Part shown: positions 2,566-60,122 of the stretch, piece after piece
Position numbering within the stretch: position 1 is the stretch's first letter
Layout: every line of letters starts with the position of its first letter
NCBI GenBank assembly: GCA_017631435.1
Contig: JAGBTG010000031.1
Coordinates: 85,853-149,852, forward strand
Origin: Bacteroidales bacterium
GTDB taxonomy: Bacteria > Bacteroidota > Bacteroidia > Bacteroidales > UBA932
Length of the DNA stretch: 64,000 nt
Direction: 5' to 3'
Position numbers and translations under genes: made by a program
The notes under the pieces: model-generated
Told to the model about the DNA's origin: nothing
Database searches by the model: none
What the model saw: the letters and a program-made list of their open reading frames with translations, nothing else

Positions 2566-4218
2566 ATGAAGGATATGAAAAAGATATATAAGCATCTGGC
2601 ACTTGTGTTATGTGCCTTGATAGTGGCTTTGGGTTTGCAGGCCCAGGAGAGGGTATATGTTTCTACAGACAAGGAGTGTTATCTGGCGGGGGAGAACATG
2701 TGGCTCTCTGTGTATTGTATGGATGGAACAACCGGCGGGTATTCCCAATTGAGCAAGGTTGCGTATCTTGAGTTCCACAATTTGGAGGGAGTGGCATCAA
2801 CAATAAAAGTGCCTCTTAAAGATGGAAGGGGATGTGGCCGCCTTCAGATTCCACTGGGTTTTGCTACAGGAAATTACTCTATAGTGGCCTATACATCCAA
2901 ATACGGAGGAAACTCCATTGGAGAGTTCAACGGTAAGGTTGTGAGTGTGTTCAATACACTTTCGGGAATTAGGGTGAAGGATGGTGTTGAGGTGGTTGGC
3001 GCAGAAGAGTCCTTGAGGGGTGACGGTAAGGTGAAGGAGCGCAGTAACTGGTTAAGCCTTGATGTGCATACTGGGGATGCCCAGAACGGTACGGTGCCTG
3101 TTGAGGTTAAGAATTTGTCGGGAAAAAGTGCCTCAGTAAGTGTTTCTGTGTATCATTTGGATGATATTGTAGGGATAATTGGGGAGTATGGCTATGACAA
3201 GAGCACTCTTCTTGCAAGAAAGGGAGATTTTGAGGTTACAGACAATGTGGATTATGCCGGCGAGGTGATAAAGGTGCGCATTGCCGGAAAGGATGTGAAG
3301 GAGAAAGGGGTGTATATGTCTGCAGTGGGGAATACCGATGACATTTATATCAATACTACAAATGGCAAGGGCGAGGCAGTGTATTATACTTCAAATATTT
3401 ACGGTACTAGAGATCTTGTGTTTGAGGTTGAGGGGGACACTTCGCATACCTATAATGTGGAGATTCTCCAGCCTGAGGCTGTGCACAGGAGTGTGCCGGT
3501 TCCGGTGTTGAAGATCTCCTCAAGGATGAGGGATGCGCTGGAACAGAGGGGGATGGATATGCAGATTGCAAAGAGGTTTGAAGCGGATACAATCTACACC
3601 CTTATGCCTATGCGTGAGAATTCGTTCATTGGAAATGTACAGCCAAGGCGCTACAGGCTGGATGATTATACCAGGTTCCCGGTAATGGAGGAGGTTATAA
3701 GGGAATATGTGAAGGATCTCAGAGTAAGGAAAGAGGGTAATGAAACCGTGATGAGACTGTTGTGGGGAACAAAGGCAAAGGCTCTGGTTCTGCTTGATGG
3801 TGTGCCGGTTACTGACCACTCTGCAGTTGTTGGAATTGATCCCCATCTTGTTAAGGAGATTGTGCTTTATTCACGCAGATATGTCCTGAACAACAGGATT
3901 TATGATGGAGTTGTAATGTTCAATACCTATAAAGGTGATATGGCAGGAGTGAAACTTGCCGGTAATGTGAGCATTGTGAGCCATAGGGGAGTACAGTATC
4001 CGCTTGCCTTTACAGGCGACAGATTGCCGCAGATGGAGAACTACCCTAATTTCAACAATACAATATACTGGAATCCGGTGGTGGAGTTGTCTCCGGAGGG
4101 TACTTTCTCGTTCAACTGCATAAAACCGCAGTACAAAGGGAAATTCAAGCTTGTAATTGAGGGAATTGACTCCAACGGAGAGGCTGTGTATACCTCTACG
4201 GTATTTTCAATTGATTAG
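2566..4218 (+). CDS. exported MG2/plug-domain-like protein of a TonB-receptor operon
   Basis: This protein has about 550 residues with a signal peptide ending in LGLQAQ. The segment directly after it (ERVYVSTDKECYLAGENMW) resembles the MG2 macroglobulin-like domain found in Bacteroidota proteins that accompany receptors. Around residues 410-465 there is a plug-like stretch with LLDGVPV and YDGVVMFNTYKG, similar to the plug domain of TonB receptors but without any barrel. Possible starts are TTG 2560, ATG 2566 and ATG 2575. I chose an ATG because a TTG is unneeded. Its position behind the receptor and DUF4249 genes suggests periplasmic or surface work with that receptor. The precise role is unknown. 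Confidence 0.82.
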   Translation: MKDMKKIYKHLALVLCALIVALGLQAQERVYVSTDKECYLAGENMWLSVYCMDGTTGGYSQLSKVAYLEFHNLEGVASTIKVPLKDGRGCGRLQIPLGFATGNYSIVAYTSKYGGNSIGEFNGKVVSVFNTLSGIRVKDGVEVVGAEESLRGDGKVKERSNWLSLDVHTGDAQNGTVPVEVKNLSGKSASVSVSVYHLDDIVGIIGEYGYDKSTLLARKGDFEVTDNVDYAGEVIKVRIAGKDVKEKGVYMSAVGNTDDIYINTTNGKGEAVYYTSNIYGTRDLVFEVEGDTSHTYNVEILQPEAVHRSVPVPVLKISSRMRDALEQRGMDMQIAKRFEADTIYTLMPMRENSFIGNVQPRRYRLDDYTRFPVMEEVIREYVKDLRVRKEGNETVMRLLWGTKAKALVLLDGVPVTDHSAVVGIDPHLVKEIVLYSRRYVLNNRIYDGVVMFNTYKGDMAGVKLAGNVSIVSHRGVQYPLAFTGDRLPQMENYPNFNNTIYWNPVVELSPEGTFSFNCIKPQYKGKFKLVIEGIDSNGEAVYTSTVFSID

Positions 4219-49360: not shown

Positions 49361-50701
49361 TTACGCCTTAATATCAATGATGTCATTGAGGTCTGTGGTG
49401 TAATTGCCGCTCAAACTGTTGCGTTTCATTGTCCATTTGTCTTCTGCTTGGGTTCCAAACCCTCCCTGTACCGCTATCTTCAGGGCATTGCGGCCGTAGC
49501 GGGCATTCACACTGTCCAGAACAGCATTGATGCACCTCATCTTTTCTGTATCAGTCTGTTCAAAAAGGTTCTGCTGCACTCCGGTGTTGGGAACTATATC
49601 TTCCACCAGAACCCCGGCCTTTTTGTAAAGGTATCCTTTGCGGTATATCTGCTTGAGCCCCGTCAGGGCATGGTTTACCATCTCAAGAGTGCTGCAGGTA
49701 GCCTCCGGAAACTGCAGGGTTATGCTGTTGTAGTATTTGGGAAGGTCTTCCCTGAAGAAGTTTGTGAGTATATATACCGTAATGCATCCTGCTGCAGATC
49801 CTTGCTGACGCAGTTTTGCCGCACACGATGAGGCAAAGTTTGAGACTGCGCTCTCCAGTTCCTCAAGTGTTGATACCATCTCTCCAAAACTTCTGCTGGT
49901 GGTGATGGATTTCTTTTCTTCCCTCACATCCAGCTGTGCTACAGGCTCCCCATTAAGTTCCATCTGGGTACGCAACCCCACAACTCCCATGTTCTTCTTT
50001 ACCCACCAGGCGCTCTTGCAGGTAAAGGCATAGGCTGTATTTACCCCCTCGCCTTTGAGAAACTTGGCGTAGCGGCGTCCGATACCCCACACATCCCCAA
50101 TCTCCATCTGCTGAAGGGCCTTGACCCTCTTTTCTTCTGTATCTATCATGCACCACCCGTGGTATCCCTTGTATTTCTTGGCGTAGCGGTTGGCCACCTT
50201 GGCCAGGGTTTTGGTATGTGCTATCCCCACACAAACCGGGATGCCGGTATATTTCCTTATCTTGTAAACTATTTCCTGCGCTTTGGCTGCAATCTGCCCT
50301 GCAGACATCCCCTTAAACGACACAAAACACTCGTCAATGGAGTAGATCTCCATACAGGGAACCATCTCCTGCAGCAGTGTCATCACCCTGCGGCTCATGT
50401 CGCCGTAGAGTCTGTAGTTGCTGGAGAAGGCCACAACCTCCCCCTTGAAGCCTCCCAGCGAAACACTCTTCCCTTTACGCTCCTTTATCTCCTCTGCCGA
50501 TACCACCCTCAGGCACATCTGTTCGGTAAGCTGGTATGCCGGAACCCCCATCTTTATCCCCATATCCTTGGCCTCCTGGCTCCTGGAGACCACACAGCCG
50601 TCATTGTTGGACAGCACCACAACAGCCCTCCCCTCCAGTGCCGGATTGAAGGCCTTCTCGCAAGAGACAAAGAAATTATTGCAGTCAACTACTCCTAACA
50701 T
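49361..50701 (-). CDS. umuC: Y-family DNA polymerase V catalytic subunit
   Basis: This 446-residue translesion polymerase shows VDCNNFFVSCEKAFNP (catalytic Asp), AVVVLSNNDGCVVSRS, the active-site YSIDECF, IAHTKTLAKVANRYAKK, and IGRRYAKFLKGEGV of the thumb. The length matches UmuC rather than DinB. It lies 90 bp downstream of umuD on the same strand. The 90-bp spacer has one TTCCCGAC and no clear hairpin. Together with UmuD' it would copy past DNA lesions during stress. Confidence 0.95.
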   Translation of the reverse strand: MLGVVDCNNFFVSCEKAFNPALEGRAVVVLSNNDGCVVSRSQEAKDMGIKMGVPAYQLTEQMCLRVVSAEEIKERKGKSVSLGGFKGEVVAFSSNYRLYGDMSRRVMTLLQEMVPCMEIYSIDECFVSFKGMSAGQIAAKAQEIVYKIRKYTGIPVCVGIAHTKTLAKVANRYAKKYKGYHGWCMIDTEEKRVKALQQMEIGDVWGIGRRYAKFLKGEGVNTAYAFTCKSAWWVKKNMGVVGLRTQMELNGEPVAQLDVREEKKSITTSRSFGEMVSTLEELESAVSNFASSCAAKLRQQGSAAGCITVYILTNFFREDLPKYYNSITLQFPEATCSTLEMVNHALTGLKQIYRKGYLYKKAGVLVEDIVPNTGVQQNLFEQTDTEKMRCINAVLDSVNARYGRNALKIAVQGGFGTQAEDKWTMKRNSLSGNYTTDLNDIIDIKA

Positions 50702-50791
50702 GCTGTGTTGCAGAAATATGATTTTCTTCCCGACAGATAGATGGAAACCTGTAGGGAAGACTTTTATAACTTATTTTGTGGGGGAGCCCCT

Positions 50792-51211
50792 TCAGAAACT
50801 CCTTACCGAATGCACCACAATTCCCCAGATGATGAACTGGTTGTCTTGGGTGACCTTTATTGGGGTGAACTGTTCATTCTCCGGCTGCAGCCAGATGGAG
50901 GTAACCTGCCCCTCATGTTTCTCAAAATGTATCCTCTTGAGGGTGAACTCGCCGTCTATGAAGCACACGGCAATGGCTCCCTCGCGGGGCTCAAGGGACT
51001 TGTCTATGATCAGAAGGTCGCCGTCAAAGATGCCAGCCCCCTCCATGGAGGTACCCCTTGCCCTTCCAAAGAAAGTGCTGGAGGGGTTCTTTACAAGTTC
51101 CCTGTTGAGGTCTATCCCGTTTTCTACATAATCCTGGGCAGGAGAGGGAAAGCCGGCCTTTATCTCCGGCAGTTCCACACTTATTCCAATATGTCCGCTA
51201 GTACTCATCAA
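50792..51211 (-). CDS. umuD: UmuD-like autoproteolytic subunit of polymerase V
   Basis: This is a 139-residue LexA/UmuD-type S24 peptidase. The cleavage site reads KAGFPSPAQDYVE, with Ala-Gly where E. coli has Cys-Gly. The catalytic Ser lies in ARGTSMEGAGIFDGD and the catalytic Lys in FTLKRIHF. RecA-stimulated self-cleavage would release the active UmuD' form. There is no DNA-binding domain. It overlaps the 3' end of the upstream aminotransferase gene by 14 bp and precedes umuC. Confidence 0.94.
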   Translation of the reverse strand: MMSTSGHIGISVELPEIKAGFPSPAQDYVENGIDLNRELVKNPSSTFFGRARGTSMEGAGIFDGDLLIIDKSLEPREGAIAVCFIDGEFTLKRIHFEKHEGQVTSIWLQPENEQFTPIKVTQDNQFIIWGIVVHSVRSF

Positions 51212-52379
51212 CGGCCTTTTTCAAATTGTTCATAGCCTCCTGCAGCACCTCAAGTCCGCATCCTACGTTCAGTCTCATGTAGCCTTCGCCTCCAGGGCCA
51301 AAGGCCTCCCCGTTGTTGAGGGCAAGCCCCGCCTTATGTATGAAGAGTTCTACAAGCTGCTGCTGGTTCACGCATCCGAACAGTTTGCGTGAGAGTTCCC
51401 TGCAATCCAGCCATACAAGGAATGAGCTCAGCGGCCTTACCGGCTTGATAAGTCCGCCCAAATCGGTTTTGCAGAAGTTCTCTACAAATACAACATTTCC
51501 CTCAATGTAATCCAACATTTTCATTCTCCAGTCATTGCCTTTTGTGTACGCTGCAATTGCTCCAAGTGTGGCAAAAATTGTTGGACTGCCCAATTCGTTT
51601 ACGCTTAGCCATTTATAGAATGGAACCCTTATATCTTCGTTTGGAACAACTGCGAACGAACTTACTATACCCGCCATATTGAAGGTCTTTGAAGGGGCTC
51701 CAAAGGTTATGCTTATCTGGGCAGCCTCCTTACTAACACTTGCAAACGGAATATGTTCATTTCCAAACAGCGGCATATCTGCATGAATCTCATCCGAGAT
51801 AACAAGAATATTGTATTCATGGCATATTGCAGCCAGTTCCTTGAGCGTTTCCCTGTCCCAAGCAATTCCTCCAGGGTTGTGGGGGTTGCTGAGGATGAGC
51901 AGTCTGCATTTGCCGGTGCTGCAGATCTCCCTGAGGTTCTGGAAATCCATCCTGTACCCGTCTGCAGTCCTTATGAGCGGATTGAATACAAGTTTTCTTC
52001 CGTTCCCTTTTGGTACATTCATGAACGGAGGGTAGATAGGGGGCTGTACAATTACCCCGTCACCCTCTTTGGTAAAATAATTCACCACATAGCCTATTCC
52101 CTTAACAATGCCGGGGATAAAGGTGAGCCATTTCTGCTCCACATCCCATCTCTGCACCTGTTTGAGCCATTGGACCACGGTTGGGTAATAATTGTCGGGA
52201 ATGACATTATAACCATAAACACCTCCATCCACCACCTGCTGGAGGGCTTCCTTTACGCACTGGGGTGTCTCAAAGTCCATATCGGCTACCCAAAGTGGAA
52301 TGAGATCCTCCTTCCCAAAATATTTTTCAAGGGCATCCACTTTTACTGAATGACTCCCTTTTCTGTTTATATGTTTCAT
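51198..52379 (-). CDS. PatB/MalY-family aminotransferase (cystathionine beta-lyase-like)
   Basis: This 393-residue fold type I PLP enzyme has the cofactor Lys in ITFGAPSKTFNMAG, LSNPHNPGGIAWDRE and VISDEIHADM typical of the MalY/PatB group, and a C-terminal RLNVGC with the carboxylate-binding Arg. Members cleave C-S bonds in cystathionine or cysteine, or have regulatory roles. It is the first gene of a leftward unit with umuD and umuC, overlapping umuD by 14 bp. This combination is unexpected. Confidence 0.92.
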   Translation of the reverse strand: MKHINRKGSHSVKVDALEKYFGKEDLIPLWVADMDFETPQCVKEALQQVVDGGVYGYNVIPDNYYPTVVQWLKQVQRWDVEQKWLTFIPGIVKGIGYVVNYFTKEGDGVIVQPPIYPPFMNVPKGNGRKLVFNPLIRTADGYRMDFQNLREICSTGKCRLLILSNPHNPGGIAWDRETLKELAAICHEYNILVISDEIHADMPLFGNEHIPFASVSKEAAQISITFGAPSKTFNMAGIVSSFAVVPNEDIRVPFYKWLSVNELGSPTIFATLGAIAAYTKGNDWRMKMLDYIEGNVVFVENFCKTDLGGLIKPVRPLSSFLVWLDCRELSRKLFGCVNQQQLVELFIHKAGLALNNGEAFGPGGEGYMRLNVGCGLEVLQEAMNNLKKAVDEY

Positions 52380-52434
52380 TTTTTAATAATCTTTGCTCCA
52401 ACGCAAATTTAATCAAACTTTAAAAAATACAATT

Positions 52435-52620
52435 ATGGGTTTTATTATTTGGTTGATAGGAACAATTTTGGCTATCAAGGCTGTTCTTGATGTATGTAAA
52501 ATGAACATCAGTACAGCATGGAAACTTATCTGGTCTATCCTTTTGCTTGTAACAGGATGGATTGGTCTTGCTGTTTATTATTTCTTTGCTAAAGATAAAA
52601 TTGAGGGCTGGAGCAAATAA
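52435..52620 (+). CDS. small PLD-nuclease-N-terminal-like membrane protein
   Basis: This 61-residue protein has two membrane helices: MGFIIWLIGTILAIKAVLDV and IWSILLLVTGWIGLAVYYFF, with a short basic loop and a C-terminal DKIEGWSK. The pattern W(x)nGxAxYYFFxK resembles the PLDc_N domain. No catalytic part is present. The open frame starts at 52393, but ATG 52435 starts the first helix. It is followed by its own terminator. The function is unknown. Confidence 0.82.
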   Translation: MGFIIWLIGTILAIKAVLDVCKMNISTAWKLIWSILLLVTGWIGLAVYYFFAKDKIEGWSK

Positions 52621-52640
52621 TTCCTTAAAAAACTGAAAAA

Positions 52641-52676
52641 ATCGTGTTTCAAGGTGATTTGAGACACGATTTTTTA
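52641..52676 (+). terminator. terminator of the small membrane protein gene
   Basis: ATCGTGTTTCAA pairs with TTGAGACACGAT (one G-U pair) over a 6-nt loop and is followed by TTTTTATTT. Confidence 0.85.
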
Positions 52677-52753
52677 TTTATAAGCAATTTGTGGCATGCG
52701 GTTTGCAAATGAATAATACGAATAGTTTTTTCAAAAGGTTAAGTTTTAGGTTA

Positions 52754-52805
52754 AATAATACGCCCGGATCAAAAGTGAATGAGGTTTGATCCGGGCGTGT
52801 TATTT
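52754..52805 (-). terminator. terminator of folC
   Basis: ACGCCCGGATCAAA pairs perfectly with TTTGATCCGGGCGT over an 11-nt loop, 36 bp past the folC stop. A/T-rich flanks extend the pairing on both sides. It may act in both directions. The remaining 80 bp up to the previous terminator hold nothing I can name. Confidence 0.82.
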
Positions 52806-52833
52806 TTATGAGTATCTTCTGGCTTGGTTCTTC

Positions 52834-54177
52834 CTATATCAGGGCTTCCGCTACAACAAAAGTACTTCCCCCAATGAATACAAAGTCTTCTTTAGCCGGG
52901 GCGAATCCTTTGAGGAAGGTTGCAATGTCTGAGGTTACAGCCTCCCCTTCAAATCCAAACTCTTTCATTCGTGCACAAAGCTTGTCACTCGGAAGAGCCC
53001 TGGTGCCCTTGGCGTTCACAAACCAGTAATATGCATCCTTAGGCAAGTATTCCACAATTGAATCCAGATCCTTGTCGGCCACCACTCCAAACACCATATG
53101 CAGCCTGCTTTGCGGGTAAAGTTCCCTCCTCTTTGCTGCAGTTGCGCTTATCTGGGCCCCCAAGACCTTGAATCCGTGTGAATTGTGTCCGGTATCGCAG
53201 ATTGTAAGCGGCTCCTGCTTCAGAGTCTCCCATCTCCCCCTGAGGCCGGTGATTTCGGCGGCCTTGCGGATGTTTACGGTTGCCCCTTCAGCACTGAAGG
53301 ACTTTGCGTGAGAGCACTCTCTACCTGAGGACTTGGCGGGTGAACACTCTCCACCGGCGCAGAATTTCTCCTCCAGGATGTTGAGCGCTGTGCACACACC
53401 TTTAAGGTTCTTCTCCTGGCATGCACCTTTGAGGTCGAGGTCTCCCTCCATGAGGCTTCTGTACATCTTCCCTGCAGCCTCCGATGTTTCTACAACTTCC
53501 TCTGCAAAGAAAATTGGCGCACCAACCTCAGTTGCCTTCTCCCTGAATACATTCTCCACCTCTGCAGAACCCTTCTCGCTCACCACAACCGGAATGCCCT
53601 GTTTGATGATGCCGGCCTTCTCAGCCGCAACTTCCGCAAGTGTGTAGCCCAAGTGCTCGCAATGGTCAAGGCCAATGTTTGTGATTACACAAAGCTCCGG
53701 GGTAATGATGTTGGTAGAATCCAGCCGGCCACCCAAACCGCACTCAATCACAGCAATATCCACCTGCTCATGGGCAAAATAAGCAAACGCCAAAGCTGTG
53801 GTAATCTCAAAGAAACTTGCTCCAAGCTCCGTGAACTTCTCTTTGTACTGCTGCAGGAAACTGTAAACAAACTCCTGCGGAACCATCTCTCCATTCACCT
53901 TCATCCTCTCCCTGAAATCAACCAGGTGAGGGGAGGTGTACAGCCCTACCTTATAGTTCTTCTGCAGTGCCGCAGCCAGCATGTGGCTGGTAGAGCCCTT
54001 GCCGTTGGTCCCCGCCACATGAATTGTCCTGAAACTCCTGTGCGGATGCCCAAGCAGCTCATCCAGCGCCTGCATGGTCTCTATTCCCGGCTTGTAGGCA
54101 ACCTTCCCCACCTTCTGGTAAGACGGGAAACGGTTGAAAATGAAATCTATCTCCTGTTGGTATTCTTGTTGTGTCAT
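52834..54177 (-). CDS. folC: folylpolyglutamate/dihydrofolate synthase
   Basis: This 447-residue Mur-ligase-like enzyme adds glutamate to dihydropteroate or folate. It has the P-loop GTNGKGSTSHMLA, PHLVDFRERMKVNG, IECGLGGRLDSTNI, ITNIGLDHCEHLG, AAEKAGIIKQGIP, GRWE and DTGHNSHG. An insertion of about 20 residues lies at the linker before GLRGRWE. It contains ECSPAKS and ECSHAKS, the products of a 30-bp tandem duplication, where relatives have a plain linker. A long terminator follows. Confidence 0.93.
   Translation of the reverse strand: MTQQEYQQEIDFIFNRFPSYQKVGKVAYKPGIETMQALDELLGHPHRSFRTIHVAGTNGKGSTSHMLAAALQKNYKVGLYTSPHLVDFRERMKVNGEMVPQEFVYSFLQQYKEKFTELGASFFEITTALAFAYFAHEQVDIAVIECGLGGRLDSTNIITPELCVITNIGLDHCEHLGYTLAEVAAEKAGIIKQGIPVVVSEKGSAEVENVFREKATEVGAPIFFAEEVVETSEAAGKMYRSLMEGDLDLKGACQEKNLKGVCTALNILEEKFCAGGECSPAKSSGRECSHAKSFSAEGATVNIRKAAEITGLRGRWETLKQEPLTICDTGHNSHGFKVLGAQISATAAKRRELYPQSRLHMVFGVVADKDLDSIVEYLPKDAYYWFVNAKGTRALPSDKLCARMKEFGFEGEAVTSDIATFLKGFAPAKEDFVFIGGSTFVVAEALI
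53296..53355. repeat. 30-bp tandem duplication in folC
   Basis: The two units are GGACTTTGCGTGAGAGCACTC... (from 53299) and GGACTTGGCGGGTGAACACTC... (from 53329). By hand count 22 of 27 core bases match, and the spacing is exactly 30 bp, so the frame is kept. It encodes ECSHAKS and ECSPAKS. Confidence 0.7.
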
Positions 54178-54213
54178 TGTATTTTCTGCTGCAATGTTGA
54201 TATATGCAAAATA

Positions 54214-55002
54214 TTACCCTAAAAATTTCTGAATAAGTCCCAGTACTGCCATAGTGCAAAAATGCACTGCTATGGAACAAACTCCCCATGCCGTCTTTAT
54301 TTGCCGAAATGTCTTTTCTGGCCTCATTCTATTATAAATAATGGCAAAAACAGTTCCAGACAATACACTGGATGCAAACACCGTGTAATACTCCTTCATG
54401 CTCAGATCCGGTTTTGGAATAAAATCTATCCATAAATAACCCAATAAGATCAAGGCTGACACCTTTAGCAGTGTAAAGAGACCTGAATATCTTTTTTTGA
54501 GATTAGACGTACCCGACATTACATATCCATTCAGGAAAGTTCCCTCATAGTCTGGCGGATATACATAATGGCACAATCCTTCTGCCCTGTCATAATTATA
54601 AATATGCTTCTTCTTAAGGTTGCGTGTTTCACAATAATTCCCACCCCACTCATCACACACCACACACATCCAGAACTTATTTACATACCTAAACTGGAAC
54701 ATGGCATAATCTGCATCCACTCCATCCAACTCCTCTGTACTGCTGTATCCGCATACCTGTGCTCCGTCCAAATTCAGGCATAAGGTATCAAGTAACCAGT
54801 AAAAATCCTCAAACTTGAACCCTCCTTCCATCAGCAACTTCACCTTGCCTACTCCCAGACTGTAAAGCTTAACCTCATATTTATAGAAATTGCCATCCAT
54901 TTCATTCCCCTCCCTATACTCCTCAACAATTCCCTTCACTTTCTTCACTCCTCCGCCATGCAGCCCGTCAACTATGATATATGTTGCTCTTTTAGCCCCC
55001 AT
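54214..55002 (-). CDS. hypothetical membrane protein of the accessory pocket
   Basis: This 262-residue protein has a soluble first 170 residues, rich in Tyr, Asp and Gly, with several Cys, including WMCVVCDEWGGNYCE. Three hydrophobic helices follow at about residues 175-260 (FTLLKVSALILLGYLWI, VFASSVLSGTVFAIIY and CSIAVHFCTMAVLGLI). It has no signal peptide. I do not recognise a family. It lies 12 bp downstream of the 194-residue lipoprotein gene and 36 bp upstream of folC on the same strand. Confidence 0.72.
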   Translation of the reverse strand: MGAKRATYIIVDGLHGGGVKKVKGIVEEYREGNEMDGNFYKYEVKLYSLGVGKVKLLMEGGFKFEDFYWLLDTLCLNLDGAQVCGYSSTEELDGVDADYAMFQFRYVNKFWMCVVCDEWGGNYCETRNLKKKHIYNYDRAEGLCHYVYPPDYEGTFLNGYVMSGTSNLKKRYSGLFTLLKVSALILLGYLWIDFIPKPDLSMKEYYTVFASSVLSGTVFAIIYNRMRPEKTFRQIKTAWGVCSIAVHFCTMAVLGLIQKFLG

Positions 55003-55014
55003 TAATGTTATTTG

Positions 55015-55599
55015 TTAAATTTCAAGTAAAGATAGCATATGATTCCCAATAATTCTCTCCTGTATTGTTGTTGTGTCTGCAATCGTCATAGTCTCAGGGA
55101 CTGTCGGGATGCTGTTTACCAATGTGTCGGATTGGATTACATATGGGTAGTATCCCTTTATTATGGTCTTGTGCAATATGTCTTCCTTTAGGGTGGAGTA
55201 CATCTGCTCAAAATCCGCTCCATCACCATAGCTCCTTGCCGTGTGATGGAAGCTGTATTTTCCGGAATCTGAATCTTGGCATACCAGCACCACATCATAA
55301 GTGTCATCATTGTTCATTCTTAAAATCAGTTCACCATGCTTCTCCTGTGCAATATGCCAATACCCGTACCAGTTGCCGTATCCCTCCTTATTAAAATCAT
55401 TGAACAGAGCTGCCATACCGTTGAATAGCACAGTATCCTTAACCAGATTTTCTTCCGTAATGATATCCGGGATGCGGTATTTCCCATTCACGCTATAGTC
55501 GTCAATGAAAAACACCGGCTCCTGCAGAGTGCAGGAGACTGCTATAATGGTCAAGATTACAGTTGTAAATGACCGATTAAACCAATATGATTGTCTCAT
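55015..55599 (-). CDS. hypothetical lipoprotein of the accessory pocket
   Basis: This 194-residue protein has an N-terminal hydrophobic stretch ending IIAVSC, a fair lipobox near residue 23. The body is beta-rich with a repeated Asp/Asn/Tyr pattern. I do not recognise a domain. It follows the first repeat pair and precedes the three-helix protein gene by 12 bp. A minus-strand TATATTTG at 55622-55629 could be the -7 box. Confidence 0.72.
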   Translation of the reverse strand: MRQSYWFNRSFTTVILTIIAVSCTLQEPVFFIDDYSVNGKYRIPDIITEENLVKDTVLFNGMAALFNDFNKEGYGNWYGYWHIAQEKHGELILRMNNDDTYDVVLVCQDSDSGKYSFHHTARSYGDGADFEQMYSTLKEDILHKTIIKGYYPYVIQSDTLVNSIPTVPETMTIADTTTIQERIIGNHMLSLLEI

Positions 55600-55621
55600 G
55601 GCGGTGTATCAATGTCATTTA

Positions 55622-55629
55622 CAAATATA
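55622..55629 (-). promoter_or_regulatory. candidate -7 box for the 194-residue lipoprotein gene
   Basis: On the minus strand TATATTTG matches TAnnTTTG and lies 22 bp before the ATG. The -33 position is not clear. Confidence 0.4.
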
Positions 55630-55705
55630 ATACAAATTTCATTAAAGGATTACCGGAGGAAAACCATCCGCACAAGGAGAATGACTATTCTTCCAGACGG
55701 GTCTT

Positions 55706-55855
55706 TCCTGCAATTCACCGTGGGCAATTACCGCCGTTGTGGGGGCCTGTAGGGGATGGCTGTGCCCACGATAGAACAAATTTGTTGCATCGTGGGTGCG
55801 GATACCCCGTGCAGACATTCCTACGCGGTGGTGCTGCCCACGGTGAATTGCAGGA
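55706..55855. repeat. Repeat A, copy 1: 150-bp structured element with perfect 20-bp inverted ends
   Basis: The left end TCCTGCAATTCACCGTGGGC is the exact reverse complement of the right end at 55836-55855. Internally, GCCCACG (55764-55770) and CGTGGGT (55791-55797) enclose the perfect palindrome AACAAATTTGTT (55775-55786). Four copies of the CGTGGGC word in alternating orientation let the two halves fold into separate arms. It is intergenic, has stops in all frames and no encoded protein I can support. A second copy at 57449-57598 has the same length and about 72 percent identity by hand count, with differences concentrated in the arms' loops. Confidence 0.92.
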
Positions 55856-55884
55856 GCAGCGGGACCTGCCAGTGACACCCTCCC

Positions 55885-56026
55885 CCAAGACAATGGCACG
55901 CCCAATCCCCTCCAAACCCATCTCCAGAGCATATTCCCTGCTCCACCAGTAAAGAGTAGTCATGGATGGCACACAAAACAGCCTCTGCAGGGCCTGTGGA
56001 GCAGCTTTGGTGTGCCATCGTCTTGG
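55885..56026. repeat. Repeat B, copy 1: 142-bp element with 18-bp inverted ends
   Basis: The left end CCAAGACAATGGCACGCC matches the reverse complement of the right end GGTGTGCCATCGTCTTGG at 16 of 18 positions. A third copy of the word GGATGGCACAC sits mid-element and can pair with the right end over a Gly-rich loop containing CTCTGCAGG/CCTGTGGAG. It begins 29 bp after repeat A. Copy 2 at 57680-57821 is the same length and about 87 percent identical by hand count, without gaps. Confidence 0.9.
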
Positions 56027-56033
56027 AAGGGCA

Positions 56034-56068
56034 CAAAAAATCCCTGCAACCTCAAAAGTTACAGGGAT
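56034..56068 (-). terminator. terminator of the 413-residue hypothetical gene
   Basis: On the minus strand ATCCCTGTAAC and GTTGCAGGGAT form an 11-bp stem with one mismatch over a 7-nt loop, followed by TTTTTTG. It lies 71 bp past the stop at 56139, directly beside repeat B. Confidence 0.78.
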
Positions 56069-56138
56069 ATGTATGTTTTTCCCGACAATTTATGCGCCAG
56101 CAAAGAAGGACGTTGAATTTTACTTGCTTCAATTAAAA

Positions 56139-57380
56139 TTACTCCTCCCAAGAGGCAAGTATTCTCTTCTCTTCATTCATTTCATATGGGAAGAACACGA
56201 CTTCTCCAGTACACCATGATGTCCTCATATCTGCAATATACCCGTCATCATGTAAATAAATTGCGAATATCCAGGGCATAGTACAAAAGTGCCACCCTTC
56301 CCAATGCCCCTCAACCACTGGAATATAATGCCGGAGCTCTGCTACTCTGCCATCATTAATCTCTGACCACTTGCTCCAATCCGTAGAGTTGCTGCCATCC
56401 CTCCGGCAATTTACTTCCAAATATTGTGAAAGCAAATCCTGAATCTCCCGAGTTATATACACAACCGCCTTGTCTGTATCAATATTTGGGGTATATGCAT
56501 ACCTTTGAGAGGCCTTCATCATATACTCCCATTCACGATCATCAACCAGGTAAACGTCTTCATATTTATACTCATCATATGCACCTGAATAATCCCTCAC
56601 CTCAATACTGCCAGGTAACACAAAAAGAGCACAACTGTCATCTTTATTGGTATCCAGGTATTCTGCGTAGATTCTACGAATTGCTTCATTAACCAATGAA
56701 TCTGCAGAATATTCCTGTAACTGGCTGGACCAGCCTTTCCATTCCTTAATGAACGGATGTATATTCTTCCCGGTAAGAGAATCATAACATTCCACAAATG
56801 ATGGCGCCATTGCCGGTTTCAATTCCAGCGTATCCGGGTGTTCCAACAACCATTGCTCATATTCTTCCCTTAATTGCTCACCAGATGTTTCCTCCCATGT
56901 AGATACCACCCATTCCCCATCAATAAATTTATAATAGTATGAATTGGAATTGAACTTCTGTCCCCGCAATGCGTCCTCCAACAGGAAGGAGGCTCCAATA
57001 CGCTCCAGATTAATGCGAACCACCTTCTTCCCGGTCTTTTCAAATGCCGCTGCAGCACCCTCCAGCTCATTATCAACAATTATCAGCTCACCACCTTCCA
57101 CTTCAAGTAATCCTACAATTTTCCCAGGAAGATCCCTACTGTTATATGACCCTGCAATAATTGAGTTTCTTGTAGTATAAATATCCATAACTACTTTATT
57201 GTTGCGATACGGATTAGCCTTTTCTTTTTCCACTATTTCTTCCAGCCACTTCCTCACGCTACTGTCTGCTACAGTGAACTCATCCACAACAATTATACGC
57301 ACACGACGGCTGCCAATGGCTATTAATGCCATTGCAATAACCGCCAGTGCCAGCAGCCAGTATCTCTTTTTACTCATCAT
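56139..57380 (-). CDS. hypothetical membrane-anchored protein bracketed by repeats A and B
   Basis: This protein has about 413 residues. After MMSKKRYW comes one hydrophobic helix (LLALAVIAMALIAIGS), which is a signal anchor without a lipobox. The long extracytoplasmic part is acidic and contains no motif I know, apart from Trp-rich stretches such as WVVSTWEE and EGHWEGWHFCTMPW. The longest frame starts with TTG at 57398, but a TATATTTG -7 box (57396-57403) overlaps that codon, so an ATG at 57380 or 57377 is more likely. The gene has its own terminator. It lies between two direct copies of the A-B repeat pair. Confidence 0.74.
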   Translation of the reverse strand: MMSKKRYWLLALAVIAMALIAIGSRRVRIIVVDEFTVADSSVRKWLEEIVEKEKANPYRNNKVVMDIYTTRNSIIAGSYNSRDLPGKIVGLLEVEGGELIIVDNELEGAAAAFEKTGKKVVRINLERIGASFLLEDALRGQKFNSNSYYYKFIDGEWVVSTWEETSGEQLREEYEQWLLEHPDTLELKPAMAPSFVECYDSLTGKNIHPFIKEWKGWSSQLQEYSADSLVNEAIRRIYAEYLDTNKDDSCALFVLPGSIEVRDYSGAYDEYKYEDVYLVDDREWEYMMKASQRYAYTPNIDTDKAVVYITREIQDLLSQYLEVNCRRDGSNSTDWSKWSEINDGRVAELRHYIPVVEGHWEGWHFCTMPWIFAIYLHDDGYIADMRTSWCTGEVVFFPYEMNEEKRILASWEE

Positions 57381-57395
57381 GGTGAACGGTTTTTT

Positions 57396-57403
57396 CAAAT
57401 ATA
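57396..57403 (-). promoter_or_regulatory. candidate -7 box for the bracketed hypothetical gene
   Basis: On the minus strand TATATTTG matches TAnnTTTG, 15 bp before ATG 57380. It overlaps the TTG at 57398, which argues against that start. No -33 TTTG is present 19 bp upstream. Confidence 0.45.
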
Positions 57404-57448
57404 CGAAAAAATCCCCATCGGGATATCAGGCAGCAGGTGAGAACTGTC

Positions 57449-57598
57449 TCCTGCAATTCACCGTGGGCAATAACCCCTTCTACAATGCCCTGTAGGGAAG
57501 GGTTGCGCCCACGTCAGAACAAATCTGTTGCATCGTGGGCAGTATCCCCTTCTGAAAGCGTCTGTGAGCAGAGGTGTCGCCCACGGTGAATTGCAGGA
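57449..57598. repeat. Repeat A, copy 2: 150-bp structured element with perfect 20-bp inverted ends
   Basis: The ends at 57449-57468 and 57579-57598 are identical to those of copy 1 and perfectly complementary. The interior keeps CCTGTAGGG, GCCCACG, AGAACAAAT, TGTTGCATCGTGGG and the CGTGGGC words at the same offsets. The left half folds cleanly: AACCCCTTC faces GGGAAGGGTT with TACA/TGTA closing the loop. Same orientation as copy 1, 1743 bp away. Confidence 0.92.
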
Positions 57599-57615
57599 AC
57601 AGCCAGAGTTGCTAC

Positions 57616-57648
57616 GGCCACACTCACGGCCACTCACGGCCACTCTCA
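57616..57648. repeat. short tandem repeat, unit GGCCACTCAC, about three copies
   Basis: GGCCACACTCAC, GGCCACTCAC and GGCCACTCTC follow one another in the spacer between repeats A and B of copy 2. This spacer is 81 bp against 29 bp in copy 1, and the tandem repeat explains much of the extra length. Confidence 0.7.
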
Positions 57649-57679
57649 GGTCACTCAATCCACGAATCCTCCCTTCCCG

Positions 57680-57821
57680 ACAAGACAATGGCACACCCAA
57701 CCCTCTCCAAACGCATCTCCGGGGCACATTCCCTGCTCCACCCTCAAAGAAATGTCTTGGATGGCACACAAAACCGCCTCTGCAGGGCCTGTGGAGCAAC
57801 TCCGGTGTGCCATCGTCTTGG
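57680..57821. repeat. Repeat B, copy 2: 142-bp element with inverted ends
   Basis: CAAGACAATGGCACACC at 57681 is complementary, but for one base, to GGTGTGCCATCGTCTTG ending at 57820. The central GGATGGCACAC and the CTCTGCAGGGCCTGTGGAG hairpin are unchanged from copy 1. Most differences lie in the two interior stretches. Same orientation as copy 1. Confidence 0.9.
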
Positions 57822-57849
57822 GGAACCGGGAACCCCCTCCAAACAGGAA

Positions 57850-57879
57850 CCCCCCGCGAGAGAGTCCTCCAGCGGGGGG
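57850..57879 (-). terminator. G+C-rich hairpin beyond the 734-residue peptidase gene
   Basis: CCCCCCGC and GCGGGGGG form a perfect 8-bp stem over a 14-nt loop, 39 bp past the stop at 57918. No clean T-run follows (TTCCTGTTTG), so it may be a terminator or an RNA-stabilising hairpin. Confidence 0.55.
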
Positions 57880-57917
57880 TGCCATCTGTCTATTGGGATT
57901 ACTTTTGAGTCTCCCTC

Positions 57918-60122
57918 TTATTTACAATACTTGTCCAACCAACCGAAGAACTCCCTGTTCCAGTGGATTGAGTTCTGTGGTTTGAGGATCCAGTGGTTCT
58001 CCTCTGGGAACAGGAGAAGCTTGCTCTCTACGCCCATCATTCTTGCGGCGTTGAATGCTGCCATACCCTGGTCTACTGGAACGCGGTAGTCCATCTCGCC
58101 GTGGGTGATAAGGATAGGGGTGTTCCAGTTCTTTATGAGTTTGTGTGCAGAGTTGCCGTAGTGGCGTTTTGCAGTTGGGTTCTCGTCCCATGGTGCGCCG
58201 CCGTTGTCCCAGGTTGGGAACCACATCTCCTCGGTCATCATGTACATGTGCTCCTGGTTGAAGATGCCGGCATGGGCAATAAGGGCAGAGAATCTGTTCT
58301 GGTGGATACCTGCAAGGTAATATACAGAGTAGCCGCCGTAGCTTGCGCCTGTAGCTGCAACTTTGCCTACGTAAGGCTCTTTCTTCATGTTGTCAACAGC
58401 AGTAAGGTAATCCTGCATGTTAAGTCCAATGTAGTCTCCGGAAATCTGCTCGCACCAAGGCTGGCCGAAAGCGGTTGTACCCCTTCTGTTAGGAAGGATT
58501 ACAATGTATCCCTGTGATGCCATAAGCCTGTAGTTCCATCTTGTAGAGAAACCCTGGCTGATTGTGCCCTGAGGGCCGCCAAGACACATCAGGATTGCAG
58601 GATATTTCTTGGTTTTGTCGAAATGAGGAGGATAAAGGATCCAAGTGTGCATCTTTTTGCCGTCAACTGTGGTCATCCATCTCTGCTCAACAAGCGGCTC
58701 GTCAAGTTTCTCCAAGGTTGCCTTGTTCTCTGCAGTAAGTTCTGCAAACTCGCCGGTCATAGGGTTTACAGTTACAATCTCAGCCGGACGCATCATGCAG
58801 GTGCTGGTAGTGATAAGCTGTTTTATCTCACCAATCTCGTCTGCTACAATTGAAACACCTCCAAAATCAAACAATGCCTCAGAAGAGGTGATTCTCCTTA
58901 TGCCGTTTCCGTAAGAAACAGGAAGTGAACCTGTAACCTCGTTCCCTTCAATTGGAAGTCCAATAACCTTGTTTACATCCACAACGAACAATGCTGTAAG
59001 GGCATTCACACAAGAGTTGAAATAGATCTTGTCTGATTTAGGTGCCCAGGTGATAGCCTCAACATTGTATTTGTAGTCTGTAGTAAGCTCTTTCATGAAC
59101 GGACGGAAATCCTTGCTGCCAAGGTTTGCAAGCACTTTGTCCATATCGGCTACAAAAAGCCTTCTCTTGTCGGCCTCATAGCCGTTGCGCTCCATGCTTA
59201 TGAATGCAAGCTGTTTGCCGTCTGGAGAGAAAAGGGGCTCGGTATCGTAACCCATCATACCTGCAGTAAGGTTCTGGGTAGCGCCGGTCTCTACATTGTA
59301 AAGGTAAATGTCTGTATTTGTTGAGAATGCATAGTCTCTTCCTGCAAGTTTCCTGCATGAATATGCAATGTATTTTCCGTCTGGGCTCCATGAAAGCTGC
59401 TCCAAACCGCCGAACGGAAGGGTAGGGAGTTCAAATTTTGCTGTCTCACTCTCAGGGTTTGCAGTGTCGCCTGCAAGGATGTCTGTAGCCTCGCCAACCT
59501 TGTTTGCAGCAAAATCAGCAATGTAGGTATGGGGAACCTCCTCAACAAAGTGGTCCCAATGGCGGTACATCAAATCTGTATATGTTCTTCCCGACGATTT
59601 GTCCAGATCAGGGTATACATCGGTAGGTTTAACGGCAGCCTTCACACTCTTTACGAACATGATCCTGTTGCCTGCAGGGTAAAGCTCAAAGCCCTCAAAA
59701 CCCTCACCTCCGGCAACCTCCGTCTCGGCAGCAAGTTTGCCACCCTCAAGGGTTGCGGTGTAAAGTTTGCCCCCTCTCATGTAAACAATCTGGCTGTCGC
59801 TTATCCAGCGGGCGTTTGACTCGCTCTTATGGGTGCTGGTAAGTTTAATGTTGTTTGAGCCGTCGAGGTTCATAAGGTAAAGCTCCCTGTTTCCCTTGTT
59901 CTGCTCAATGCTGGTGTAGCTTACTCCGTAAAGGATCTTTGAACCGTCGGGAGAAAGCTGTGGATCACTTACTTTGCCCAACTGGTGCATTATCTCAGGG
60001 GTGAAGTGGCCGTCAACCACTTTAATCTCCTGTTTGGTAATTATTGGCTCGCTGGCATCTGAACCGCCGCAGCCACATAGGGCAGCCGCCATAATCATAA
60101 CTGGTATAAAATGTTTTTTCAT
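57918..60122 (-). CDS. S9-family peptidase lipoprotein (acylaminoacyl-/dipeptidyl-peptidase-like)
   Basis: This 734-residue protein has the lipobox AALCGC near residue 18. Residues about 40-450 form a propeller with Tol-like repeats (LSPDGSKILYG, WSPDGKYIAYS and FSPDGKQLAFI). The hydrolase domain carries Ser in GASYGGYS, Asp in HGEMDYRVP and His in EENHWI. It would remove short peptides or acylated residues from peptide ends in the periplasm. It lies 10 bp downstream of the 957-residue S9 gene, so both come from one transcript. Confidence 0.93.
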   Translation of the reverse strand: MKKHFIPVMIMAAALCGCGGSDASEPIITKQEIKVVDGHFTPEIMHQLGKVSDPQLSPDGSKILYGVSYTSIEQNKGNRELYLMNLDGSNNIKLTSTHKSESNARWISDSQIVYMRGGKLYTATLEGGKLAAETEVAGGEGFEGFELYPAGNRIMFVKSVKAAVKPTDVYPDLDKSSGRTYTDLMYRHWDHFVEEVPHTYIADFAANKVGEATDILAGDTANPESETAKFELPTLPFGGLEQLSWSPDGKYIAYSCRKLAGRDYAFSTNTDIYLYNVETGATQNLTAGMMGYDTEPLFSPDGKQLAFISMERNGYEADKRRLFVADMDKVLANLGSKDFRPFMKELTTDYKYNVEAITWAPKSDKIYFNSCVNALTALFVVDVNKVIGLPIEGNEVTGSLPVSYGNGIRRITSSEALFDFGGVSIVADEIGEIKQLITTSTCMMRPAEIVTVNPMTGEFAELTAENKATLEKLDEPLVEQRWMTTVDGKKMHTWILYPPHFDKTKKYPAILMCLGGPQGTISQGFSTRWNYRLMASQGYIVILPNRRGTTAFGQPWCEQISGDYIGLNMQDYLTAVDNMKKEPYVGKVAATGASYGGYSVYYLAGIHQNRFSALIAHAGIFNQEHMYMMTEEMWFPTWDNGGAPWDENPTAKRHYGNSAHKLIKNWNTPILITHGEMDYRVPVDQGMAAFNAARMMGVESKLLLFPEENHWILKPQNSIHWNREFFGWLDKYCK

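Follow-up and report, generated by a model that had tools for sequence, protein, structure and literature searches.

A dispersed 150-bp repeat of Bacteroidales with four copies of a short word, probably mobilised by a RAYT-type Y1 transposase

Results

Repeat elements A and B in the window

The window, a stretch of 64,000 nucleotides from the genome of a Bacteroidales bacterium (assembly GCA_017631435.1, here G000), carries two copies of a 150-bp repeat, element A, at positions 55706..55855 (copy 1) and 57449..57598 (copy 2), both of minus polarity as judged by their asymmetric centre. The first and last 20 bases are identical in both copies and form perfect inverted repeats, extended to 21 bp in copy 1, while the 42 of 150 positions at which the copies differ all fall inside the 110-bp interior. 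Coordinates and direct comparison thus confirm what the sequence-only reading had claimed, namely two 150-bp copies with perfect inverted ends.

Each copy contains four words in alternating orientation, starting at element positions 14, 59, 86 and 131. In copy 1 these are CGTGGGC (55719..55725, plus strand), GCCCACG (55764..55770, minus), CGTGGGT, which is one base off (55791..55797, plus), and GCCCACG (55836..55842, minus). All four words are exact in copy 2: CGTGGGC (57462..57468, plus), GCCCACG (57507..57513, minus), CGTGGGC (57534..57540, plus) and GCCCACG (57579..57585, minus). The alternating layout described earlier therefore stands, with one correction, CGTGGGT as the third word in copy 1. 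The cruciform-like arrangement proposed from it was borne out and recurs in related elements. The foot of the element is a constant AATTCACC and the outer stem comprises 22 pairs. The AT-rich centre (AACAAATTTGTT) is conserved and asymmetric (GGTGCAACAAATTTGTTCTGCC), so that each copy has a polarity. Predicted folding energies of the two copies lie far below those of shuffled sequences (z of -12.1 and -8.9, respectively), and none of 200 shuffles was as stable.

A second repeat family of similar design, element B, is also present twice, here given without strand: at 55885..56026 (about 142 bp, ends CCAAGACAATGGCAC / GTGCCATCGTCTTGG), 29 bp after the first A copy, and at 57681..57821 (about 141 bp), 82 bp after the second. 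In three genomes there are four places at which B lies 29-82 bp from A, or from an A-type subfamily, i.e. window positions 55855-55885 and 57598-57681, G007:C26:51853-52199 and G024:C55:31667-31880. The pairs in G007 and G024 have a common spacer and probably go back to a single ancestral site, and a duplication may have given rise to the two window pairs; A and B may have a common target preference or move together. At the site common to G007 and G024, an A-type element with the word CGTCCACG occupies G007:C26:51853-52007, its spacer to B being the same as in G024:C55, where an A element bearing CGTGGGC is represented by its end from 31863 onwards. Apparently this is one site at which the element has been replaced.

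In the region 49361-60122 of the window the folC-to-DinB block (54177 down to 49361) is inverted with respect to the DPP-like genes in G006 and G007, and the A/B-rich stretch 55600-57900 sits at the window-side junction of this block. The interval between the DPP-like genes and folC was considered as an empty site and dropped, the block being inverted in relatives.

Copies of A in the genus and their location

The 19-nt end of A was searched, with up to 2 mismatches, in 39 genomes of the genus including the window's own, and was matched in four of them. These hold 19 complete copies: four each in G000, G006 and G007, and seven in G024. The search of other genomes suggested by the sequence-only reading thus returned 17 complete copies beyond the window pair, which rules out chance. 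Truncated pieces or lone ends occur at G000:C42, G000:C21 and G024:C55, a profile search detected relatives of A in 10 of the 39 genomes, and G037, outside the genus, has a single match to the end with 2 mismatches. The end pattern read backwards gave no match in searches of 41 and 39 genomes.

Length is the same in 18 of the 19 copies, the remaining one being a single base shorter. Relative to the arbitrary contig strand, 12 copies are of plus and 7 of minus polarity. In a scan for ORFs of at least 110 aa, 12 copies overlapped none, and 7 were overlapped by ORFs of 111-234 aa. Four of these seven ORFs (both window ones, the 208-aa and the 234-aa) were scanned against Pfam and matched no family. 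The overlapping ORFs are taken for chance frames, and A copies thus appear to be situated between genes.

Site polymorphism

The genes on either side of the G000:C22 site are separated by ~57 bp in G006, 141 bp in G022 and ~1036 bp in G000, where the gap contains A and more; by profile search no A is present on the corresponding G022 contig. At the G007:C52 site the gap between the flanks is ~25 bp in G015, without A, versus 417 bp in G007, and G006 carries an element of another subfamily in the matching gap. Sequence comparison of these sites shows insertion or loss of A since the species split, and from this site polymorphism we infer that A is mobile. Orthologous loci devoid of A differ by more than the element, and a precise excision footprint was absent from them. 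The check for empty sites in relatives accordingly gave absence of A at orthologous positions and no clean footprint, and the check for target-site duplications found no consistent duplication among the 19 copies.

Other repeats were noticed beside A. A ~120-bp stretch adjoining it at G000:C22 (about 3282-3400) recurs at G000:C30, C5, C27 and C3, and at G007:C52:4950-5060 an A copy is adjoined by a further palindromic repeat of ~100 bp with the word GTCCACAC, part of which has many matches in G007 and G024.

Transposase genes adjoining the elements

The Y1_Tnp family (PF01797) is present in 30 of the 41 genomes searched, so its presence means little and it is the position of the gene that matters. 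Two A copies of like polarity enclose a 323-aa frame in G024:C22 that matches Y1 weakly. In G006:C117 its homologue, with 79% identity, is accompanied by an A copy on the one side that the contig covers. The encoded protein is a divergent one of RAYT type, about 320 aa long. Fold comparison gave IS608 and the E. coli TnpA-REP as the best matches; a sequence search of PDB with the transposase returned no match, so it is the fold comparison that places the protein. Family-model scores were below the curated cut-offs, including those of REP_Tyr_transpos and Y1_Tnp, and the catalytic Y1/HUH residues are kept in all ten proteins aligned. The seven proteins of the A clade carry the motifs THVH/THLH/THIH and YVx[KR]N[AP]P, and two of the three others aligned have NHVH but Y[LI]DRNP. 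C-terminal helices are predicted at 263-278, 288-301 and 306-313, and none of five proteins scanned had a Pfam helix-turn-helix match. Neither G007 nor G000, whose assembly is 88% complete, yielded an A-clade gene scoring at least 300 bits.

Homologues at 52-63% identity in the genus adjoin other elements of about the size of A, which flank the gene on both sides at G006:C107, G015:C18 and G017:C27 and on one side at G008:C113; weak palindromes alone surround it at G042:C7 and G024:C27. The proposal that A is a non-autonomous mobile element is thus supported by its dispersed copies, by presence and absence at orthologous sites and by its association with a Y1 transposase gene.

Element B adjoins a more distantly related Y1-like gene in G000 (C5:85675-86547), with a complete copy on one side and a partial one on the other, and also a Y1-like gene at G024:C3. 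For the B-type protein of G000:C5 there was no Pfam match, and its match to REP_Tyr_transpos was weak (E 0.0048); in the protein alignment its HUH and Y residues are kept. Another group of Y1 genes was seen at G000:C36 (L057), G007:C62 (L060) and G006:C153 (L059). Palindromes of ~125 bp with ends TTACGTYGTCTTTTTGTACAA flank the first two and a related one of 134 bp the third, so that this group is apparently a third enzyme-element family of the genus.

Four sites, at G024:C22, G006:C117, G007:C50 and G017:C12, are located upstream of an oadA-like gene near a tRNA-like sequence. They hold A together with the transposase in G024 and G006, a single A in G007, and an element with its own word in G017. 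The site may be favoured; alternatively, the state in G007 may reflect a deletion between direct A copies.

Related loci in Bacteroidales

Named genome contigs, scanned with the protein alignment, yielded 261 relatives, and the best 80 of the 261 loci, among them six already known in the genus, were analysed. Their titles all name Bacteroidales or Bacteroidia, bar one Candidatus Cryptobacteroides, and many name ruminant gut compartments. Flanks were examined for an inverted-repeat element of 120-200 bp no more than 520 bp from the gene, and 156 of 160 were long enough for this test. An element was present in 65 of the 156, as compared with 4 of 139 distant control stretches 1.2-1.7 kb away, which are probably more often coding than the flanks, and with 0-1 of 156 flanks per round in 10 rounds of dinucleotide shuffling. 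The span of these elements has a median of 152 bp (quartiles 146-155). At least one was found at 48 of the 80 loci and two at 17, and in 15 of these 17 the ends of the two have a common run of at least 8 bases. By the inverted-repeat test, 91 of the 156 flanks and 32 of the 80 loci had no element.

In 44 of the 65 elements the outer word recurs at both inner sites with no more than 2 mismatches in 16, against 0.05 expected from shuffled interiors; leaving out the six known loci, 38 of 58 elements pass. Among the 51 elements with no more than 3 mismatches, the word starts are 46-52, 20-26 and 46-52 nt apart in 45 elements for each distance, in a search confined to near mirror symmetry and to a first distance of 38-59. 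AATTC occurs in the arms of 36 of the 65 elements versus one of 65 interior stretches, which points to a rather constant foot beside a variable word. GT[AG]G within the outer 24 nt was seen in 5 of the 65 flanking elements, and the GGGGWSAS motif in one.

Turnover of the word and divergence of the enzyme

Subfamilies of the genus differ in their words, e.g. CGTGGGC, GGCCAC, GTCCAC and ATCCATG, and the word is changed at all four sites (15 aligned elements). In a Mantel test on those 39 of the 80 loci that have an element passing the word test, with shared descent uncorrected, transposase identity correlated with word similarity (outer word r 0.38, inner word r 0.33), and none of 5000 permutations reached the observed r. 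Outer words agreed at 12.0 of 14 positions above 80% transposase identity, at 10.6 of 14 between 70 and 80%, and at about 6 of 14 below; under about 70% identity, words are as alike as those of any two loci. For transposase pairs below 75% identity r was 0.12, so the correlation stems from the close pairs. One of the eight inner branches of the transposase tree is well supported, and with the tree mostly unresolved the case for co-divergence is carried by the Mantel test. Among close relatives the word turns over in step with the enzyme.

Pairing between the words

Pairing hardly varies within A, where 96.3% of positions are paired against 96.4% after shuffling, and covariation is at chance. 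The subfamily alignment (A4) comprised 2 A copies and 13 of 20 other elements, seven being dropped as of different length, masked, shortened or a near twin. Here all 18 word pairs have changed on both sides, and the compensatory changes for which the sequence-only reading proposed a test were thus found between subfamilies and not inside A. With nested pairing of words 1-4 and 2-3, 85.7% of cells are paired (56.5% shuffled, 36-47% slid), with a covariation score of 0.738 vs 0.239. With side-by-side pairing of words 1-2 and 3-4 the figures are 82.0% and 0.686 vs 0.235. Most of the 13 subfamily elements came from a profile that models the nested pairing and not 1-2/3-4, so the set leans towards the former. 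Both pairings are well kept, and covariation therefore favours neither the long hairpin nor the clover. Predicted energies favour the nested form in all 19 A copies. In the G008 element words 1 and 2 carry one common variant base and words 3 and 4 another, and in the right-hand element of G015:C18 variants are common to words 1 and 4 and to words 2 and 3.

The arms form weak hairpins at most (mean z -0.26 left, -1.02 right). When pairing within the arms was compared register by register, no clear signal emerged from 18 of the 19 copies, the deletion copy being omitted (best z 3.2, 0.34 vs 0.31 paired). Left and right arms of the same copy form no better duplexes (-21.8) than arms taken from different copies (-23.45; shuffled -17.4).

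Discussion

Elements of the IS200/IS605 family, such as IS608, have hairpins at their ends and produce no target duplication. A has both features in common with them, and the A-linked protein has the catalytic fold of IS608 by fold comparison. A differs in being a symmetric doublet, and the gene in G024 has a whole A copy on each side, not one end.

Closer parallels come from REPINs, doublets of REP sequences moved in trans by a REP-associated tyrosine transposase, RAYT (PMC3116915, PMC8266576), for which a figure legend proposes hairpin and clover folds (PMC3116915). As described there, such elements consist, like A, of two inverted units with a variable spacer that may fold in either way, copies flank the cognate Y1 gene and are dispersed, and each transposase has its own repeat family. 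A copies flank a RAYT-type Y1 gene and occur elsewhere in G024 and G006; in the window's genome only B does so. A is, however, 150 bp long, compared with 71 bp between the starts of the two 16-mers of the published GI doublet, its 7-8-nt word occurs four times at nearly constant spacing, there are few copies per genome, and its transposase of ~320 aa scores below the REP_Tyr_transpos and Y1_Tnp cut-offs. Its foot is AATTC[AG]C in place of the REP foot GT[AG]G; the canonical GT[AG]G is absent from the foot of the A stem. GTGG does occur inside the A word, and none of the 13 other subfamily elements has it in word 1.

TIRtrons, described in PMC3733652 and PMC6006769, contain TIRYT genes of the Y1 type flanked by terminal inverted repeats, some of which are repeat families. 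As in A, the Y1 gene lies between inverted repeats that have no relation to GTAG REPs; among the published TIRs some are self-complementary or paired, and there are small repeat families. In contrast, GGGGWSAS, described for many but not all TIRtrons, is found in none of the 19 A copies, and the published description, in the text available to us (PMC3733652, PMC6006769), contains no four-word rule. TIRYT subclass 2.1 is characterised by a C-terminal helix-turn-helix; here C-terminal helices are predicted, and five proteins scanned gave no Pfam HTH match. For RAYT subclass 2.6 (group 5) of Bacteroidetes, 'atypical secondary structures' are reported to flank the genes and to have copies elsewhere in the genome (PMC6006769). 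The phylum, the flanking structures lacking GT[AG]G and the genomic copies agree with A, whereas the signatures NH[LIV]H and YIH[QN]NP do not fit the A clade. A-type elements may extend or overlap these atypical structures, a comparison made at the level of the text description. Since A lacks both the canonical GT[AG]G foot and the subclass 2.6 signature, we do not place it in a named subclass; in the best reading its mode of action is that of a REPIN, with a likeness to the TIRtrons described in PMC3733652. In the open-licence PMC literature on RAYT/REPIN/TIRYT and Bacteroidetes, supplements aside, we recognised no description of a four-word element, and 'palindrom' and 'REPIN' are absent from the available text of the Chryseobacterium RayT paper (PMC11194056).

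We consider A, with a probability of roughly 0.8, to be a palindromic element of the REPIN/TIRtron-like type that is non-autonomous and is moved in trans by a cognate Y1 (HUH) transposase of RAYT type. This reading draws together the observed copies, their architecture, the link to the transposase gene, the turnover of the word among close relatives and the site polymorphism. In this reading each half of A is one REP-like unit, with the constant foot AATTCACC beside a stem of the word and its reverse complement, enclosing a variable arm of ~38 nt, and two such units are joined head to head around the centre AACAAATTTGTT. When single-stranded, e.g. on the lagging-strand template, the element would adopt a long-hairpin or clover fold. 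The words might then be recognised by a transposase dimer that cuts near the feet, and A would be excised and reinserted with no target duplication. The word would serve as a private address of each transposase lineage.

Much of the evidence on pairing would also be expected if A were a double-stranded four-site protein-binding array of two inverted pairs, such as an autoregulatory operator or a chromosome-organising site, to which the Y1 protein binds as a domesticated DNA-binding protein that no longer moves A. Across subfamilies the word pairs 1-4, 2-3, 1-2 and 3-4 pair about equally (116/135, 112/131, 113/135 and 105/131), as is expected from copies of one bound word, folded or not, and four copies of one bound double-stranded word would give the same compensatory pattern. 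A copies flank the transposase gene itself and complete copies are few per genome (4-7), which also suits such an array. It accords poorly with the site polymorphism between species, with the catalytic residues kept in every aligned protein, with the near-fixed length, constant ends and outer stem, and with interior arms that vary freely like REPIN spacers. We regard it as the principal competitor, albeit an improbable one.

The two remaining explanations are far less probable still. If A acted mainly as a structured RNA or as a bidirectional terminator that owed its spread to an effect on regulation, the very stable predicted folds and the copies outside clear genes would be explained. Yet both polarities are found, the element is tied to a transposase gene, covariation inside the family is at chance and the arms are little constrained. 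In Rfam the match of lowest E-value was BTnc005 at 56037-56142, with 27.2 of 174.8 bits, and nothing came near a cut-off. The structured RNA suggested by the sequence-only reading thus gained no support of its own, and we think it very unlikely. Slightly less credible even than this is that A belongs to a DDE (cut-and-paste) transposon as a conventional MITE: small size and perfect 20-bp terminal inverted repeats would suit this, but no consistent target duplication accompanies the 19 copies, the gene enclosed by two A copies codes for a Y1 HUH protein, and the word recurs inside the element.

Mobilisation of A by its cognate transposase, the reading we prefer, accounts for an otherwise unrecognised 150-bp repeat and extends the REPIN/RAYT-like kind into rumen and gut Bacteroidales. 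Beyond A itself, the odds lean slightly towards a widespread, undescribed Bacteroidales class of Y1-transposase-linked elements with a four-site address code. In such a class a 7-9-nt word, at a spacing of about 48-22-48, would be replaced at all sites in concert with divergence of the enzyme, the AATTC foot tending to stay. Private words would shield coexisting families, such as A and B, which are sometimes side by side, from each other's enzyme. Among transposases that bacteria have tamed, RAYT/REPIN pairs are a well-known example, and the joint change of enzyme and target is an open question. Dozens of enzyme-element pairs differ here in one clearly marked word, four per element, so their specificity is testable by swapping words or enzymes, and the choice between long hairpin and clover is open to direct test on the same pairs.
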